The notes under the pieces: model-generated
Seen by the model: only the letters and a program-made list of their open reading frames with translations
Told to the model about the DNA's origin: nothing
The model's database searches: none
NCBI GenBank assembly: GCA_903951405.1
Contig: CAJBBV010000063.1
Location: 1-59,308, forward strand
Reading direction: 5' to 3'
Source of the DNA: an uncultured bacterium
GTDB lineage: Bacteria; Bacteroidota; Bacteroidia; Chitinophagales; Chitinophagaceae
Length of the DNA stretch: 59,308 nt
Shown here: positions 15,651 through 22,877 of the stretch, one piece after another
Layout of the letters: every line of letters begins with the position of its first letter
Position numbering within the stretch: the first letter of the stretch is position 1
Made by a program: the position numbers and the translations under genes

Positions 15651-17447
15651 TTAGTCCTTTTGGTCCTGCAAAATGTGCAGAAAAGCATAGGCCCCTTTGG
15701 ATTTAATAAGCTCTTCATGGGTGCCCGATTCCACTATTACGCCTTTGTCGAGCAAAAGGATTTGAGAAGCTTTCCTGATGGTAGACAATCTATGAGCTAT
15801 TATTATGGACGTTCGGCCTGCCGTCAATACTTCAATGGCATGTTGAATCATTTTTTCAGTATGGCTGTCAACCGAGGAAGTAGCTTCATCCAATACCAAA
15901 ATAGCAGGTTTAAACAAAAGCGCGCGCATAAAGGATAATAATTGCCTTTGCCCCATAGATAAGGTACCTCCTCTTTCCATGACATTATAATGGTATCCTT
16001 CGGGCAACTGCTCAATAAAGTCATGAATTCCAATCAGCTTTGCCGCCTCCTTTACCTCGTCTAAGGTAATAGTTGGATCACGAAGGGTGACATTTTCATA
16101 AACCGAACCCGAAAAAAGATAGACATCCTGCAGCACAACCCCAATTTGCCTTCTCAATGTATTTAGACCAAAGTCTTCTATACGCAGGTCATCAATGAAG
16201 ATGTTTCCCTCAGAATGCTGATACAAACGATTAATTAAGCTTATGATAGTGGACTTCCCACTTCCCGTATGCCCTACTATAGCCAGCGTCTGTCCTTGAG
16301 GAACACAAAAAGAGATGTCATTCAATACCGAAGTTCCCTCTATATAGCTGAAACCAACGTGTTGAAACTCTATTTTACCCTTAATCTTACGATCTACTGC
16401 CTTTGCATTATCCTCAATAAAATCTTGGTTTGCCAGAACCATCAATACCCGCTCTCCAGCAACCATTCCCATCTGAAGTACATTGAACTTATCGGCTATG
16501 ACCCGCAATGGCCGAAATAGCAAATTCAATAAAAGTATAAATGATACAATATTACCCGTAACATTTGCCGCTTCAAGTGGACTCAATTGATACGCGTTCC
16601 GGGCAGTAAACCAAACCAACAAGCCCATAGAAAAGGCAAGTATGATCTCAACAACAGGGAAAAAGACAGAATAGGCAAAAATCGCGCTGATATTTGCATC
16701 ACGGTGATGCTGATTGATCTTTTCAAATTGATTTTGCTCCTTTTTTTCAGCATTAAATGCCTGAATTACTTGCATACCTGAAATATGCTCCTGTACAAAC
16801 GCATTCAATGATGCGATGGCATTACGAACGCTGACAAACGATTTATTGACACTCTCTTTAAAAAAATAAGTGGCAACTAATAATAAGGGGAAAGGGATTA
16901 TGCAAACAATAGTCAATTGCCAATTGGTGTAAAACATAGCAGTCAAAATTGCCACAATAGAAAGCAGGTCTGCTACTATAGGAATAAAGCCTTCAGAAAA
17001 GATATCATTGATGGCTTCTATGTCATTAATTGTTCTCGTAGTCAGTGTACCAATTGGTGTCTTATCAAATTGACGCAAGTTCAAGGATAGAATTTTTTCA
17101 TAGACAGTCAACCGTATATCCTTTACAACACGATGTCCTAACCAAGAAGTTATATAGGTGAAGATGAAACGAAGTATGCTTTCAACTAGCAATACTAAAA
17201 TTTGAATTAAGGTAATAGACAATAAAAAATGCATGATAAGCTCTCCATTTGAACCTGGATCAGTACTAACACGATGGAGTGTTTTGTTGATTAAGAGTGG
17301 CCTAAGGGGAGCTAATAATGCCAGCATGATCGCTAGCAGAACTGACAAATAAAATTTTCCAGCATATGGCTTTGCAAATGAATAAATTCTTCGCAATAAT
17401 GTTAGATCAAATACTTTTTTTTTCTGACTTGCCTTTTCATTACTCAT
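15651..17447 (-). CDS. ABC exporter, fused permease/ATPase (MsbA/LmrA-like)
   Basis: TM domain plus VGHTGSGKSTI, LSMGQRQLLSFMRAL, ILVLDEATSSVD motifs. Confidence 0.93.
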   Translation of the reverse strand: MSNEKASQKKKVFDLTLLRRIYSFAKPYAGKFYLSVLLAIMLALLAPLRPLLINKTLHRVSTDPGSNGELIMHFLLSITLIQILVLLVESILRFIFTYITSWLGHRVVKDIRLTVYEKILSLNLRQFDKTPIGTLTTRTINDIEAINDIFSEGFIPIVADLLSIVAILTAMFYTNWQLTIVCIIPFPLLLVATYFFKESVNKSFVSVRNAIASLNAFVQEHISGMQVIQAFNAEKKEQNQFEKINQHHRDANISAIFAYSVFFPVVEIILAFSMGLLVWFTARNAYQLSPLEAANVTGNIVSFILLLNLLFRPLRVIADKFNVLQMGMVAGERVLMVLANQDFIEDNAKAVDRKIKGKIEFQHVGFSYIEGTSVLNDISFCVPQGQTLAIVGHTGSGKSTIISLINRLYQHSEGNIFIDDLRIEDFGLNTLRRQIGVVLQDVYLFSGSVYENVTLRDPTITLDEVKEAAKLIGIHDFIEQLPEGYHYNVMERGGTLSMGQRQLLSFMRALLFKPAILVLDEATSSVDSHTEKMIQHAIEVLTAGRTSIIIAHRLSTIRKASQILLLDKGVIVESGTHEELIKSKGAYAFLHILQDQKD

Positions 17448-17464
17448 ACCAACATCATTTCCAT

Positions 17465-19651
17465 TTAGTACATCTTATTTGAATATGCCTTAATGAATAA
17501 AGCACCTAAATTTTTATGAGGAGGGATATAATTATCAAAGCGCTCCTTTCCAAGTCCAGAAGAAAATTGCTTTTCGAGCTGACTCCACATGGCTACCCAA
17601 TCAACTGGTTCACCCCTTCTCAACGATTCATTAATTAACTTCAAAATTGGCTCGTTAACTAGCTTTGTGCCAACTTCTTTTGATGATACAATATGAGCTT
17701 GCGGGCACACCTCTAGAATTGCATTCAAGTTCTGAAACCCCCCGCAAGATCCTAATACAATGATTTTAGCTGTTGGAGGCATCTGACTAATAGTAGACTT
17801 CAAATGATAACTATGTCCTCGGTGGATTACTACAGTTGGAGACAGGTTCAACTCAGTAAGGTATGCAGATAAGGCTGATTGTGCTTTGGCGTCAGGATCA
17901 TCCGCTTTTGAATTATCAAGAGGAAGATTAGCAAAGATCCAAACTGGCTTTCCTGATAAAGACTTGATTTCAACCCATTGATCCCTCTCAATTATTTTCC
18001 ATTCATTTTTGCCATTAAACATCCCGAGAAAATTATTAAATGACTCTTTCCCATCTTTATCCCCATAGAAAAATACTTGCTGAATAACTCTCTCATTTGA
18101 ATCAGATAGGTCTCCATAATTCATTGTGTACACAGGTGGTATATGATACCGCTCTGAAAGTAGCCCGGTTTTATCATGCTCAGACTTAGTTAATAAATCC
18201 AATATGTCATAGATTAAAAGTCCTCGCTTATTATTATTTTTTGTTTGCAATAAAAGATTTCGTTCAATCTCAGCAATCACCAACTGTTTAGTGAGCGGGT
18301 CATTTATGCTACTATAAGAGTCGGCAACATCAACAGCATCTTCAAGATCAAATGTTTTTTCAAGCCCTCTAACAAACGACTTCATCAATAGGTTGGCAGA
18401 TAGGTCTGGCAAGGTTGATAAAAAATCATTCAACTTATTATAACTAGCTGCCATTTTAATAAATTTCCTAAATCGATCAAATCGAACCTGAAGAAGTAAC
18501 GTATCCCCTGCTCCATGACGAACTTTCGCCATCATCCTATTGTACACCCCAATATAACTTGATGTATATAGTATATCCTCTCCAGTAACGATGATATAAT
18601 AAAGCTCCTCAGCGGTTAACGGCTGAAGTACACGAAATCGAACAGCATCCACTTCATCATGCAATGCATTCACCTCGTTAATATAAAGCTCCTCTGCTTT
18701 TTTAGCTATCATTTCAATGACCTCACGATATAATACTGGCGTATCCTTTCTGCGCAGGGCATCCATGTATTCCATTTCAGTTTTAACCAATAACTGGTAA
18801 TACTTTAGTCCGTCGTCAGCCATTGAGCTGACTTTGTCATATTCAATATTCCCCTTAAGTATCGAATGCATAAATGGAAATATCAATCGCCCAGATTTAT
18901 CATCTGAAAGTCGAACCAATAATTGAACCACCGAATCATTGATTTGCCTCATTTTAATACCCAACGCTGAATTTCGTGCAGAAGCGTAATTATAGAACTG
19001 CTGAGGGTTCGTTCTAGAAGCACATATGATTAGGCTATCCGCATAAGGTTGCCCCAAATATGGATCGATAGTGAACAAGATTTTTTCAGGAAATTTTGCA
19101 GCATATTGCTTGTAAATAAATGCTTTTAGTTCAGTCAACCCATGTGAATCAAAAAAAATGGTATTGGCCCCAAAAAGGATCTCATTAACCTCATATGGAT
19201 AATTCATAGCAATCGACAACATAGAGCCGGATAATTCATCATATAGCATGGCTTCCTTAAAGGCATCATACAATAGAATGCCATAGCTCAAGTCAATCGT
19301 AGCATTATTGATAGCTCCCCTATACTTTTCAAGCCAAATTCTTATGCCTGTTAAATATTTAACTTTGCTTCGATGGTCTAATCCCTCATCCACTTCTATT
19401 ACCTTTTGGAGCTCATCAACCTGCCTGAAATAAATGTCACTTAGCAGTAATCCCAATTCAGCATCTAGGTTCAAGGTCAGAAATTTATTATGTAAGGGCG
19501 ATGGCCCACACAATAGCTCCTGCTGTACATCAATGTCGTCATGCAACTTCAGTCGTTTGATGTCTATAGATACCCTGCCTGTATCCTGCTCAGCCTGAAC
19601 CGAGGATAGTAAAAAGAGTACAAAAATGATAGTAGATAGAGTAAAACGCAT
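17465..19651 (-). CDS. Secreted protein of unknown function with C-terminal caspase-fold (clan CD)-like His/Cys signature
   Basis: Signal peptide MRFTLSTIIFVLFLLSSVQA; C-terminal PTVVIHRGHSYHLKSTISQMPPTAKIIVLGSCGG. Confidence 0.5.
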   Translation of the reverse strand: MRFTLSTIIFVLFLLSSVQAEQDTGRVSIDIKRLKLHDDIDVQQELLCGPSPLHNKFLTLNLDAELGLLLSDIYFRQVDELQKVIEVDEGLDHRSKVKYLTGIRIWLEKYRGAINNATIDLSYGILLYDAFKEAMLYDELSGSMLSIAMNYPYEVNEILFGANTIFFDSHGLTELKAFIYKQYAAKFPEKILFTIDPYLGQPYADSLIICASRTNPQQFYNYASARNSALGIKMRQINDSVVQLLVRLSDDKSGRLIFPFMHSILKGNIEYDKVSSMADDGLKYYQLLVKTEMEYMDALRRKDTPVLYREVIEMIAKKAEELYINEVNALHDEVDAVRFRVLQPLTAEELYYIIVTGEDILYTSSYIGVYNRMMAKVRHGAGDTLLLQVRFDRFRKFIKMAASYNKLNDFLSTLPDLSANLLMKSFVRGLEKTFDLEDAVDVADSYSSINDPLTKQLVIAEIERNLLLQTKNNNKRGLLIYDILDLLTKSEHDKTGLLSERYHIPPVYTMNYGDLSDSNERVIQQVFFYGDKDGKESFNNFLGMFNGKNEWKIIERDQWVEIKSLSGKPVWIFANLPLDNSKADDPDAKAQSALSAYLTELNLSPTVVIHRGHSYHLKSTISQMPPTAKIIVLGSCGGFQNLNAILEVCPQAHIVSSKEVGTKLVNEPILKLINESLRRGEPVDWVAMWSQLEKQFSSGLGKERFDNYIPPHKNLGALFIKAYSNKMY

Positions 19652-19807: not shown

Positions 19808-20488
19808 ATGGGATCTGACAGTAAACGAATTTTGATTGCAGATGACGAACAGGATATTCTGGAGATCATGACCTATAATCTCCAACTTCATGGCTATGAA
19901 GTAGCGTGTGCAAAGGATGGAGATGAAGCAATTCAGAAGGCCAAAGACTTCAAACCGGAACTGATTATTCTAGATATCATGATGCCAAAAAAAAATGGCA
20001 TTGAAGTATGTAAAATACTTAGATCTCAGTCAATTTTTAACGATACTATCATCATATTTCTTACAGCCCTAAATGATGAATTGTCTCATGTTAAGGGACT
20101 AGAATTTGGGGCGGATGATTACATAAGCAAACCCATTTCCCCTAAAATACTTGTCTCAAAAGTAAATTCCCTTTTTAGAAGACTCACAAAATCGGATACA
20201 AGTAAAGTAATTGAAATTGGAGACGTAAAAATAGATCCAGATCAATACCTCGTTTACTATAAAGACGAACCAATAAGTTTGGCAAAAAAAGAATTTGAGC
20301 TAATCTCATACCTAGCCTCTAAGCCTGGTCGGGTATTTCTTAGAAATGAAATCCTCAATCAAATTTGGGGTAGTGAAGTGATTGTTGGCGATCGTACCAT
20401 AGACGTCCATGTAAGAAAAATAAGACAAAAGCTAGGCATTGACTGCATTACAACGGTAAAAGGTGTTGGGTACAAATTTGAACTTTAA
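19808..20488 (+). CDS. OmpR/PhoB-family DNA-binding response regulator
   Basis: Receiver IADDEQD...ILDIMMPKKNGIEVC...ISKPISP; winged helix GDRTIDVHVRKIRQKLG...TVKGVGYKFEL. Confidence 0.95.
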   Translation: MGSDSKRILIADDEQDILEIMTYNLQLHGYEVACAKDGDEAIQKAKDFKPELIILDIMMPKKNGIEVCKILRSQSIFNDTIIIFLTALNDELSHVKGLEFGADDYISKPISPKILVSKVNSLFRRLTKSDTSKVIEIGDVKIDPDQYLVYYKDEPISLAKKEFELISYLASKPGRVFLRNEILNQIWGSEVIVGDRTIDVHVRKIRQKLGIDCITTVKGVGYKFEL

Positions 20489-20533: not shown

Positions 20534-21586
20534 ATGTTCGAAACTAAAAATTACACCCCAGTTCAGCTTGCATTGCTGAATGCACTTGTTATTTCATCCT
20601 GTGGATTTATAACCACTTTACTTTTTTCAAAAAACATAGTATTCACAATCCTTTTAACGATTCTTTTATTTGGTGTCAGTTTTTTACTAACTAGATTCCT
20701 GGTTAACAAATTTCTAAACAGAAAGATCAAATTAATTTATAAGTTCATTCACCAAACTAAGGCATCTAAAAGAGAAGAATTTTTCAAAAAAACTATCCTC
20801 CCTCAACAAAGTCTTGAAGAAGTTGGCGAAGAGGTATTGCTCTGGGCAGATCAACGCAAGAACGAGATGGAAATGCTCGAAAAAAATGAACTATTTAGAA
20901 AGGAATTTTTACAAAATCTTTCTCACGAATTCAAAACACCTGCGTTTGCTATTCAGGGCTATCTTGAAACATTAATTGCTGGTGCAATTGATGTTCCTGA
21001 AGTAAGCAAGAAATTTCTTGGGAAGGCATTTCAAAATACAGAGCGACTGATACATTTAATATCAGATTTAGACGAAATCACGAAATTAGAAAGTGGTAAA
21101 CAGGAGTTGTTCCTTCAACGCTTTATAATACAAGATTTAATTAATGAAGTGTTTGATTCACTTAGCTTCAAAGCTGAAGCAAAAAGCATAAGATGCTTCA
21201 TTAAGAAAGGCTGCGAACAACCTTTAACCGTTGAAGCGGATAAAGAAAAAATAAGGCAAGTACTTACTAATCTAATTGACAATGCCATCAAATATGGCAA
21301 TTCTGAGGGAAAAATCGAAGCAAGCATCTATCAAACAGATGATAAAAATTCGCTTATCGAATTAAGTGATGACGGAATCGGAATTGAAGAAGAACACCTA
21401 CCAAGGATATTTGAACGATTCTACAGAACAGATTATGGCAGGAGCAGAAATATTGGAGGTACAGGACTTGGATTGGCAATATGTAAGCATATTATAGAAG
21501 CCCATGGACAAATTATTCATGTAAGAAGTAAACCTGCTGTTGGCACCACCTTTGGATTTACCCTAAAAACCAAATTAGACAGCTAA
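20534..21586 (+). CDS. PhoR-like membrane sensor histidine kinase
   Basis: Two N-terminal TMs; H-box LSHEFKTPAFAIQGYLE, N-box LIDNAIKYG, DDGIGIEEEHLPRIFERFYRTD, GTGLGLAICKHI. Confidence 0.95.
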   Translation: MFETKNYTPVQLALLNALVISSCGFITTLLFSKNIVFTILLTILLFGVSFLLTRFLVNKFLNRKIKLIYKFIHQTKASKREEFFKKTILPQQSLEEVGEEVLLWADQRKNEMEMLEKNELFRKEFLQNLSHEFKTPAFAIQGYLETLIAGAIDVPEVSKKFLGKAFQNTERLIHLISDLDEITKLESGKQELFLQRFIIQDLINEVFDSLSFKAEAKSIRCFIKKGCEQPLTVEADKEKIRQVLTNLIDNAIKYGNSEGKIEASIYQTDDKNSLIELSDDGIGIEEEHLPRIFERFYRTDYGRSRNIGGTGLGLAICKHIIEAHGQIIHVRSKPAVGTTFGFTLKTKLDS

Positions 21587-21632: not shown

Positions 21633-22877
21633 GTGCTAACTTATAAATTGAACTCCTCATATTACATGGCCTTTACACACTATATAGTTGTTATCTGCTT
21701 ACTATGCAGCCAGCTTATTGAGGCTAGATCCAAAACAACTTTTATAGACGACTCTATTCACATTGAATTCTTAGGAAAATCATATTCACTACCTCCTAGG
21801 GGCCAACTAGAACAATTTACGGGAGATATCAATGAAGCTGAAATTACTAAATATGCAAACCAAATTCATTCAAAAGAATTAGACTACATATGCCAATCTC
21901 TTTTATTAATCCAAAGAAAGGAGAACTTAGACGATTGGTTATACTATCAATTGGTTCGCAGAACAGCACAAGAGTGTATTCACAAAAAGGAAGACTATAT
22001 TGGATATACCATATTGAAATGGTATATCTTAAGTTATACAGGTTTTGAACCACTATTAAGTGTTTCTGAAAATAAATTACTTCTTTATATAAAGAGTGAT
22101 GACATCATATATAATCAACCGCTAAAAAGAATTGAGAATAAACAATATGTATGCCTAAACTACCATGATTACGGATTCAACGTAGATTTTAATTATGAAA
22201 AGTTTATCAATATAACAGGCATACTAATAGAGGGGGCACCGTTTACTTTCTTAGTTAAAACACTTCCAGATTTTGCTGATTCTACTTATAAAACCAAGCA
22301 GTTAATATTTCAATATAAAAAAAAGGCTGATCAAGTAAACATAAAATTAAATACAAATCTAAGTAGCTATTTTACTAATTACCCTGTAACAGAATATAAG
22401 AATCAATTTAATATTCCATTATCAAAGGAAACATACCAATCGCTTATTCCTGCGTTAAAAGAAAAGCTAATTAATTTTGACAAAAACAAAGGAGTGGAAT
22501 ACCTTATGTATTTCACTAGGCATGCTTTTATATTTGAAAGCGACACTGAAATATTTGGAAGAGAAAAGAGGCTTTCTCCAGAAGAAACCCTCTTATATGA
22601 AAAAAGTGACTGTGAAGACAGATCGGCACTTTTCTTTTTACTTGTAAAAGAAATATATGATCTCCCAATGATTGTGTTATCCACACCGCAACACGTTACC
22701 GTTGCCGTAAAACTTGATAAGCCATCCAAACATTCTATACTTTACGAAGGCAAACAATACACGATATGCGAACCAACGCCACAACGTAGGGAATTAAAAG
22801 TAGGCGAAGAAATATCAACCATTAGGAAGCAACATTTTACAGTTGAATTTGCATATGACCCTACAAGAAACAAATAA
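21633..22877 (+). CDS. Secreted protein with transglutaminase-like Cys/His signature
   Basis: ETLLYEKSDCEDRSALFFLLVKEIYDLPMIVL...PQHVTVAVKL (DCEDRS Cys codon 22611-22613; His codon 22692-22694); signal peptide after MAFTHY. Confidence 0.55.
   Translation: MLTYKLNSSYYMAFTHYIVVICLLCSQLIEARSKTTFIDDSIHIEFLGKSYSLPPRGQLEQFTGDINEAEITKYANQIHSKELDYICQSLLLIQRKENLDDWLYYQLVRRTAQECIHKKEDYIGYTILKWYILSYTGFEPLLSVSENKLLLYIKSDDIIYNQPLKRIENKQYVCLNYHDYGFNVDFNYEKFINITGILIEGAPFTFLVKTLPDFADSTYKTKQLIFQYKKKADQVNIKLNTNLSSYFTNYPVTEYKNQFNIPLSKETYQSLIPALKEKLINFDKNKGVEYLMYFTRHAFIFESDTEIFGREKRLSPEETLLYEKSDCEDRSALFFLLVKEIYDLPMIVLSTPQHVTVAVKLDKPSKHSILYEGKQYTICEPTPQRRELKVGEEISTIRKQHFTVEFAYDPTRNK

Follow-up and report, generated by a model that had tools for sequence, protein, structure and literature searches.

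We have found that a gene of an uncultured member of the Chitinophagaceae, located at positions 17465..19651 on the minus strand of the window (the whole stretch of 59,308 nucleotides that was analysed), codes for a secreted protein of 728 amino acids that is the founding sequence of an unnamed family. This protein is reasonably likely to be a periplasmic cysteine peptidase resembling those of clan CD. This probable peptidase is carried, with conserved synteny, by almost all Chitinophagaceae genomes, and yet it has neither a family name nor an assigned function. If active, it would add to the caspase-type clan a new family, found in two phyla, whose His-Cys spacing is the shortest that we measured, and would extend this clan into a housekeeping role at the cell envelope.

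The gene is real and subjected to purifying selection. The open reading frame has an ATG start and numerous homologs, and its comparison with an 89% identical copy in locus L043 gave a dS of 0.86 and a dN of 0.054, i.e., a dN/dS of ~0.06. An earlier note made from the sequence had described a secreted protein of this length with a signal peptide, and both the frame and the hydrophobic N-terminus were confirmed. The first 20 residues (19592..19651, minus strand) read by eye (MRFTLSTIIFVLFLLSSVQA-EQD) as a Sec-type signal peptide with cleavage after VQA and no lipobox Cys. Similar hydrophobic stretches are found at the N-terminus of most full-length homologs. The protein would be exported via the Sec pathway and is probably periplasmic.

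The source genome carries one copy of the gene. Relatives were detected in 380 of 399 Chitinophagaceae genomes, representing 102 of 104 genera, and in 128 of the 299 genomes sampled from the order Chitinophagales. A phylum-wide sample of 396 genomes gave 14 matches, all of them Chitinophagaceae. The second phylum was reached by a search of plasmid proteins, where four records of Azospirillum (Alphaproteobacteria), all annotated as hypothetical, matched with E values from 3e-23 to 7e-30, being only ~20% identical overall. Plasmid homologs of this genus are located at L340:4729-6624, L341:4381-6597 and L342:4573-6597, the last two in a common neighbourhood with ethanolamine ammonia-lyase, LysE and GGDEF genes. 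No relative was found in the phages or viral contigs searched, and no family of Pfam, NCBIfam, PADLOC, PHROGs or the PDB sequences accounts for the protein. The PDB sequence profile search returned chance matches only, including designed helical proteins and EF-hands. An EF-hand was rejected, as the DxDG stretch of the protein does not have ligand position 1, and a defence system was also rejected, there being no PADLOC match.

The region of interest is the C-terminal domain, residues 513-728 (17468..18115, minus strand), as delimited by the homolog alignment and an AlphaFold model. The earlier note had left the N-terminal ~550 residues unrecognised; it is true that no known family matches before the catalytic-type domain, but this domain starts at about residue 513-520 and not at 550. 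The putative dyad region reads TVVIHRGHSYHL...TAKIIVLGSCGGF, with a His motif H610-R-G-H613-S614 (17810..17824, minus strand) after strand 5 and a Cys motif G634-S-C636-G-G (17738..17752, minus strand) after strand 6. Both motifs, HRGHS and GSCGG, are identical in the Azospirillum homologs. Twelve positions (D531, D533, H610, R611, G612, S614, G634, C636, G637, N666, W685 and W689) were invariant in the 247 homologs compared, while H613, S635 and G534 were each retained in 244 and N575 in 241. His and Cys were 23 residues apart in all 242 homologs fitting the search pattern. The codons given previously for them (17813-17815 for His613 and 17744-17746 for Cys636), and the distance of 23 residues, matched exactly, and the non-conservation in homologs that would have counted against the pair was not observed. 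With C636 in 247/247, H613 in 244/247 and the spacing fixed, the His/Cys pair is not due to chance.

Other conserved segments of the domain, all on the minus strand, are strand 1 with its loop VFFYGDKDG (residues 523-534, 18050..18085), strand 4 with its loop VWIFANLP (residues 570-577, 17921..17944) and a C-terminal YIPPHKN motif (residues 708-714, 17510..17530) for which model confidence is low. The loop SSKEVG after strand 7 (residues 656-661, 17669..17686) is, by covariation, a candidate substrate-pocket loop.

The exceptions at position 613 bear on a very improbable reading in which the protein is a pseudo-enzyme, with a structural or signalling role, that keeps the dyad for the stability of the fold. 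Three diverged copies, L038:2474-5266, L293 and L294, belonging to families other than Chitinophagaceae, have HRGY or HRGL and no H613 while retaining H610 and C636, and may themselves be pseudo-enzymes. However, such losses appear only in rare diverged copies, and both residues are present together in 244 of 247 sequences that are otherwise very diverged.

Conservation bears as well on what we consider a far-fetched pair of alternatives, a nucleophile-elbow hydrolase (class I amidotransferase/DJ-1 or alpha/beta-hydrolase) or a HAD phosphatase. The elbow pattern is G-x-C-x-G, which G634-S-C-G-G638 fits, and HAD motif I starts with DxD, so that D531-K-D533-G after strand 1 fits its first half. 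Nevertheless, Cys/Ser enzymes with an elbow require a His downstream of the nucleophile, and no His following C636 is conserved to 90% or more (at position 712, just 143 of the 247 homologs have His). The acidic residues of HAD motif IV are absent, and neither type of enzyme is matched by a Pfam family or appears among the top structural matches.

The fold and the placement of His and Cys on their strands are predicted by the model together with covariation. The AlphaFold model of residues 500-728, built with an alignment of five sequences, had a pLDDT of 75.6 and a pTM of 0.79 (pLDDT <50 for residues 709-728) and shows alternating alpha/beta structure, so that the absence of a caspase-like alpha/beta sandwich, which would have spoken against the original proposal, did not occur in the prediction. 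Its seven strands span residues 522-527, 551-555, 559-564, 570-575, 607-610, 630-633 and 653-656, with helices between them, and His613 and Cys636 directly follow the successive strands 607-610 and 630-633. Mean-field covariation over the 247 homologs (effective number 150; p-values against random segment pairs, uncorrected for multiple testing) supported a parallel arrangement for strands 5-6 (p=0.006), 1-5 (p=0.021) and 6-7 (p=0.033), and an antiparallel one for 2-3 and 3-4 (p=0.004 each), although the latter two score in the parallel sense too, as hairpins can. The pairing of strands 1 and 4 was not significant (p=0.146) and is suggestive only. Other pairings at about 0.05 or below were 1-6 antiparallel (0.035) and 2-4 parallel (0.050). 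The parallel signal between strands 5 and 6 indicates that the His strand adjoins the Cys strand, in agreement with the layout first proposed.

On this basis the sheet is probably mostly parallel, with the order 2-3-4-1-5(His)-6(Cys)-7, and five parallel strands (4, 1, 5, 6 and 7) are plausible. The predicted order is that of the caspase core, 2-1-3-4-5, with a hairpin added, an extra strand pair located between helix 1 and the equivalent of caspase strand 2 that gives a GTPase-like order at that edge. The domain model, whose last 20 residues have a pLDDT <50, does not show the antiparallel caspase strand 6. The strongest covarying pair of the domain was E659-N707 (z=9.5), linking the loop of strand 7 to the C-terminal motif, and other pairs among the strongest tie the strand-7 loop to those of strands 4 and 5. 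S537 (loop of strand 1), N580-D585 (strand 4), H616 (strand 5), S657-E659 (strand 7) and R704-N707 (C-terminal motif) covaried together, which fits a single active-site edge.

The same predicted edge could in principle hold a metal, and the protein would then be a metal-dependent hydrolase or a metal-binding protein on a Rossmann-like scaffold, with D531, D533, H610, H613 and C636 as ligands instead of a dyad. We regard this as quite unlikely. Like the Cys, both Asp residues and H610 never vary, H610 is better conserved than H613 and outlasts it in the three diverged copies, and H-x-x-H and D-x-D at the C-terminal edge of the sheet could make a metal site. On the other hand, the model places H610 within the end of its strand (607-610) and H613 on the loop, the conservation of S614, G634, S635, G637 and G638 around the Cys resembles a nucleophile loop, and no metallohydrolase family was matched.

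A cysteine peptidase of clan CD type shares several features with this domain. The definition of the clan places the catalytic His and Cys where the counterparts of caspase strands 3 and 4 have their C-terminal ends (PMC4357240). Here the order is also His and then Cys (H613 in 244/247, C636 in 247/247), and the AlphaFold model and covariation predict each of them at the C-terminal end of its strand, the two strands being parallel and adjacent. The pattern of a hydrophobic strand followed by x-x-G-H and a hydrophobic strand followed by S-C-G is also the same, as is the invariant Asp on the loop of strand 1, where caspase-3 and MALT1 read P1. There are also differences. A His-Gly motif is a feature of the clan (Fig. 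1 legend, PMC12445089), whereas here Ser614 follows His613 in 247/247 homologs and the Gly is found before the His. Two residues before the Cys there is Gly and not Asp, an extra beta-hairpin precedes the equivalent of caspase strand 2, and profile matches were not significant. The spacing of 23 is, as had been noticed before, short for the clan, since we measured 34-35 residues in C25, 40-51 in CHAT, 42-57 in C14 and 46-49 in C11 (canonical members, other C11 rows not being reliably parsed). Published values are 46 for PmC11 (PMC4850288), 46 for YabG (PMC12445089) and 49 for MARTX-CPD (PMC4357240). Because the His-Gly feature is missing and structural similarity is unproven, we have not filed the protein in any family.

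Foldseek, which had been proposed as a check for clan CD, put GIMAP/Ras GTPases first (TM ~0.35) and did not rank caspases. The best 50 PDB matches of the domain model were mostly GTPases, with GIMAP2, Roco and NFeoB on top at TMq 0.31-0.36, and no clan CD entry was among them. The GTPases probably rank first because Ras-like GTPases share the same layout of edge strands. In the two Foldseek best-50 lists a single protein bore a clan CD name, a viral C11-related one at rank 46 (TMq 0.44). An unnamed viral protein, BFVD A0A1P8DJ94, matched the domain model with a Foldseek probability of 1.00, a TMq of 0.43 and an rmsd of 4.8 over 194 columns, superposing on it better than the GTPases do. A Ras/GIMAP GTPase as such was rejected, as there is no P-loop GxxxxGK[ST] (the loop reads GDKDGKES, with D531 and D533 invariant and K535 variable) and no GTPase Pfam match.

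The earlier note likened the His/Cys layout to that of caspases, gingipains and CHAT. The domain matched none of the Pfam models of CHAT (PF12770), C11 (PF03415), C25 (PF01364) or C14 (PF00656), and its hhalign comparisons with C11, C14, C25 and CHAT were not significant, by a method too weak to place the family, as C25 against C14 or CHAT goes likewise undetected. The CHAT score was 21.5, the highest of 12 shuffles being 19.1; this alignment pairs the Cys strand, the helix and the next strand, and C636 falls on the catalytic Cys. The C14 score was 19.3 against a shuffle maximum of 15.7, with C636 on the catalytic Cys in part. These Cys-on-Cys alignments only hint at a relationship.

The GTPase-like topology raises the alternative of a separate lineage of cysteine hydrolases with a GTPase-like strand order, in which the His and Cys arose by convergence and not from clan CD. 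This seems unlikely to us, even though Foldseek favours the Ras/GIMAP topology, the hairpin precedes the strand adjoining strand 1, HS takes the place of HG, the spacing is 23 and the profile matches are not significant. A His strand and a Cys strand that are parallel and adjacent form the signature of clan CD (PMC4357240), additional antiparallel strands are found at that edge in PmC11 and related domains too (PMC4850288) and the best CHAT alignment sets Cys on Cys. Put in the wider form of a core gene of the Chitinophagaceae with a cysteine-hydrolase domain of its own lineage, with GTPase-like order, an HRGHS/GSCGG site 23 residues apart and no descent from clan CD, the proposal is likewise unlikely, and the clan CD-like peptidase is the reading that we follow below.

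Among the individual families, CHAT (including TPR-CHAT) has a comparable architecture of a helical N-terminal half and a C-terminal peptidase-type domain, and its best alignment sets the strand-and-Cys stretch around SAKIVVLGSCGGY against the CHAT stretch AELVVLSACQTG. Unlike CHAT, our protein is below CHAT detection, has a spacing of 23 instead of 40-51, is not TPR by Pfam and is exported. The clostripains (C11) have exported members as well, one C11-related viral protein being the match at Foldseek rank 46, and DxDG after strand 1 resembles the YMxxDNxLE start of C11. They differ in the spacing (46-49 in canonical members), in the profile, which did not match, and in the Asp two residues before the Cys, which here is the invariant Gly634. 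In L312 and in loci L328-L337, from another family of the phylum, we have found short proteins with weak Peptidase_C11 matches; GHE replaces GHG in L312, and C11-like proteins may thus not all have His-Gly.

Separase (C50) consists of a long helical solenoid followed by a compact caspase-like C-terminal domain, and its His-Cys spacing is also short, ~26. It is, however, eukaryotic, cytosolic and nuclear, and keeps HG. Separase was absent from the Pfam families shown for 32 members of our family and from those of the window protein. The C25 peptidases (gingipain/PorU) are exported clan CD peptidases of Bacteroidota, with spacings of 34-35 against 23 and without a profile match to our domain. 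The source genome has one C25 copy, a different gene on another contig. No type IX sorting-domain model matched the 728-residue protein.

The catalysis, specificity, substrate and role that we infer for a clan CD-like peptidase would be as follows. In a compact C-terminal domain of ~215 residues, Cys636, at the C-terminal end of strand 6, would be activated by His613, which occupies the corresponding end of strand 5, and would cut a peptide bond. D531 and D533 lie on the strand-1 loop that presumably corresponds to the chain position of Arg64 in caspase-3 and Asp365 in MALT1, from which a basic P1 (Arg or Lys) is predicted as the likeliest specificity. Those two residues take part in the recognition of P1 (PMC4626109).

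The N-terminal half contains a helical module, residues 181-445 (18317..19111, minus strand), that may hold or present a partner or substrate, acting as a docking module. Its helices come from a low-confidence AlphaFold model of the full-length protein without alignment (pLDDT 36). An HMM of the module found it twice in 22 of the 30 sequences of at least 830 aa, and a single copy in each of the 217 shorter matching sequences. Several other families of the order often have two genes, one long (~1000-1100 aa) and one short (~700 aa), which in many genomes lie side by side. Such tandem pairs are found at L031:2011-7293, L032:883-6201 and L038:2474-7268, the long protein usually having two helical modules, and they provide a natural test of the role of the module.

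The neighbourhood of the gene is conserved. At 17 bases downstream, in a probable operon, a MsbA-like ABC exporter is found (15651..17447, minus strand; 452 bits to TIGR02203, under the cutoff of 602), an arrangement shared by 45 of 120 loci, and the ATP synthase genes come after it in the window. On the other side there is a divergent PhoB-like response regulator (19808..20488, plus strand), divergent in 64 of the 120 loci, followed by its partner, a PhoR/PnpS-like histidine kinase (20534..21586, plus strand). In a genome with two copies of the gene (L074, L077) the regulator pair adjoins one copy and the exporter the other. Outside Chitinophagaceae, no recurrent gene neighbour was found. This synteny hints at a functional linkage with the 728-residue protein, the alternative being a general conservation of synteny. 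The conserved exporter and the divergent PhoBR-like system suggest a housekeeping role at the envelope, for example in processing or quality control, and not a toxin or defence function. In one genus (L070) we saw by eye that a PhoU-like (DUF47-type) gene and a gene for a PiT-like phosphate transporter come next after the regulator/kinase pair, which links the pair to phosphate.

Further along the window, at 21633-22877, a secreted-looking protein of 414 aa is encoded that had no Pfam or NCBIfam match and whose KSDCEDRS...TPQHVTVAV resembles a transglutaminase-type Cys/His core.
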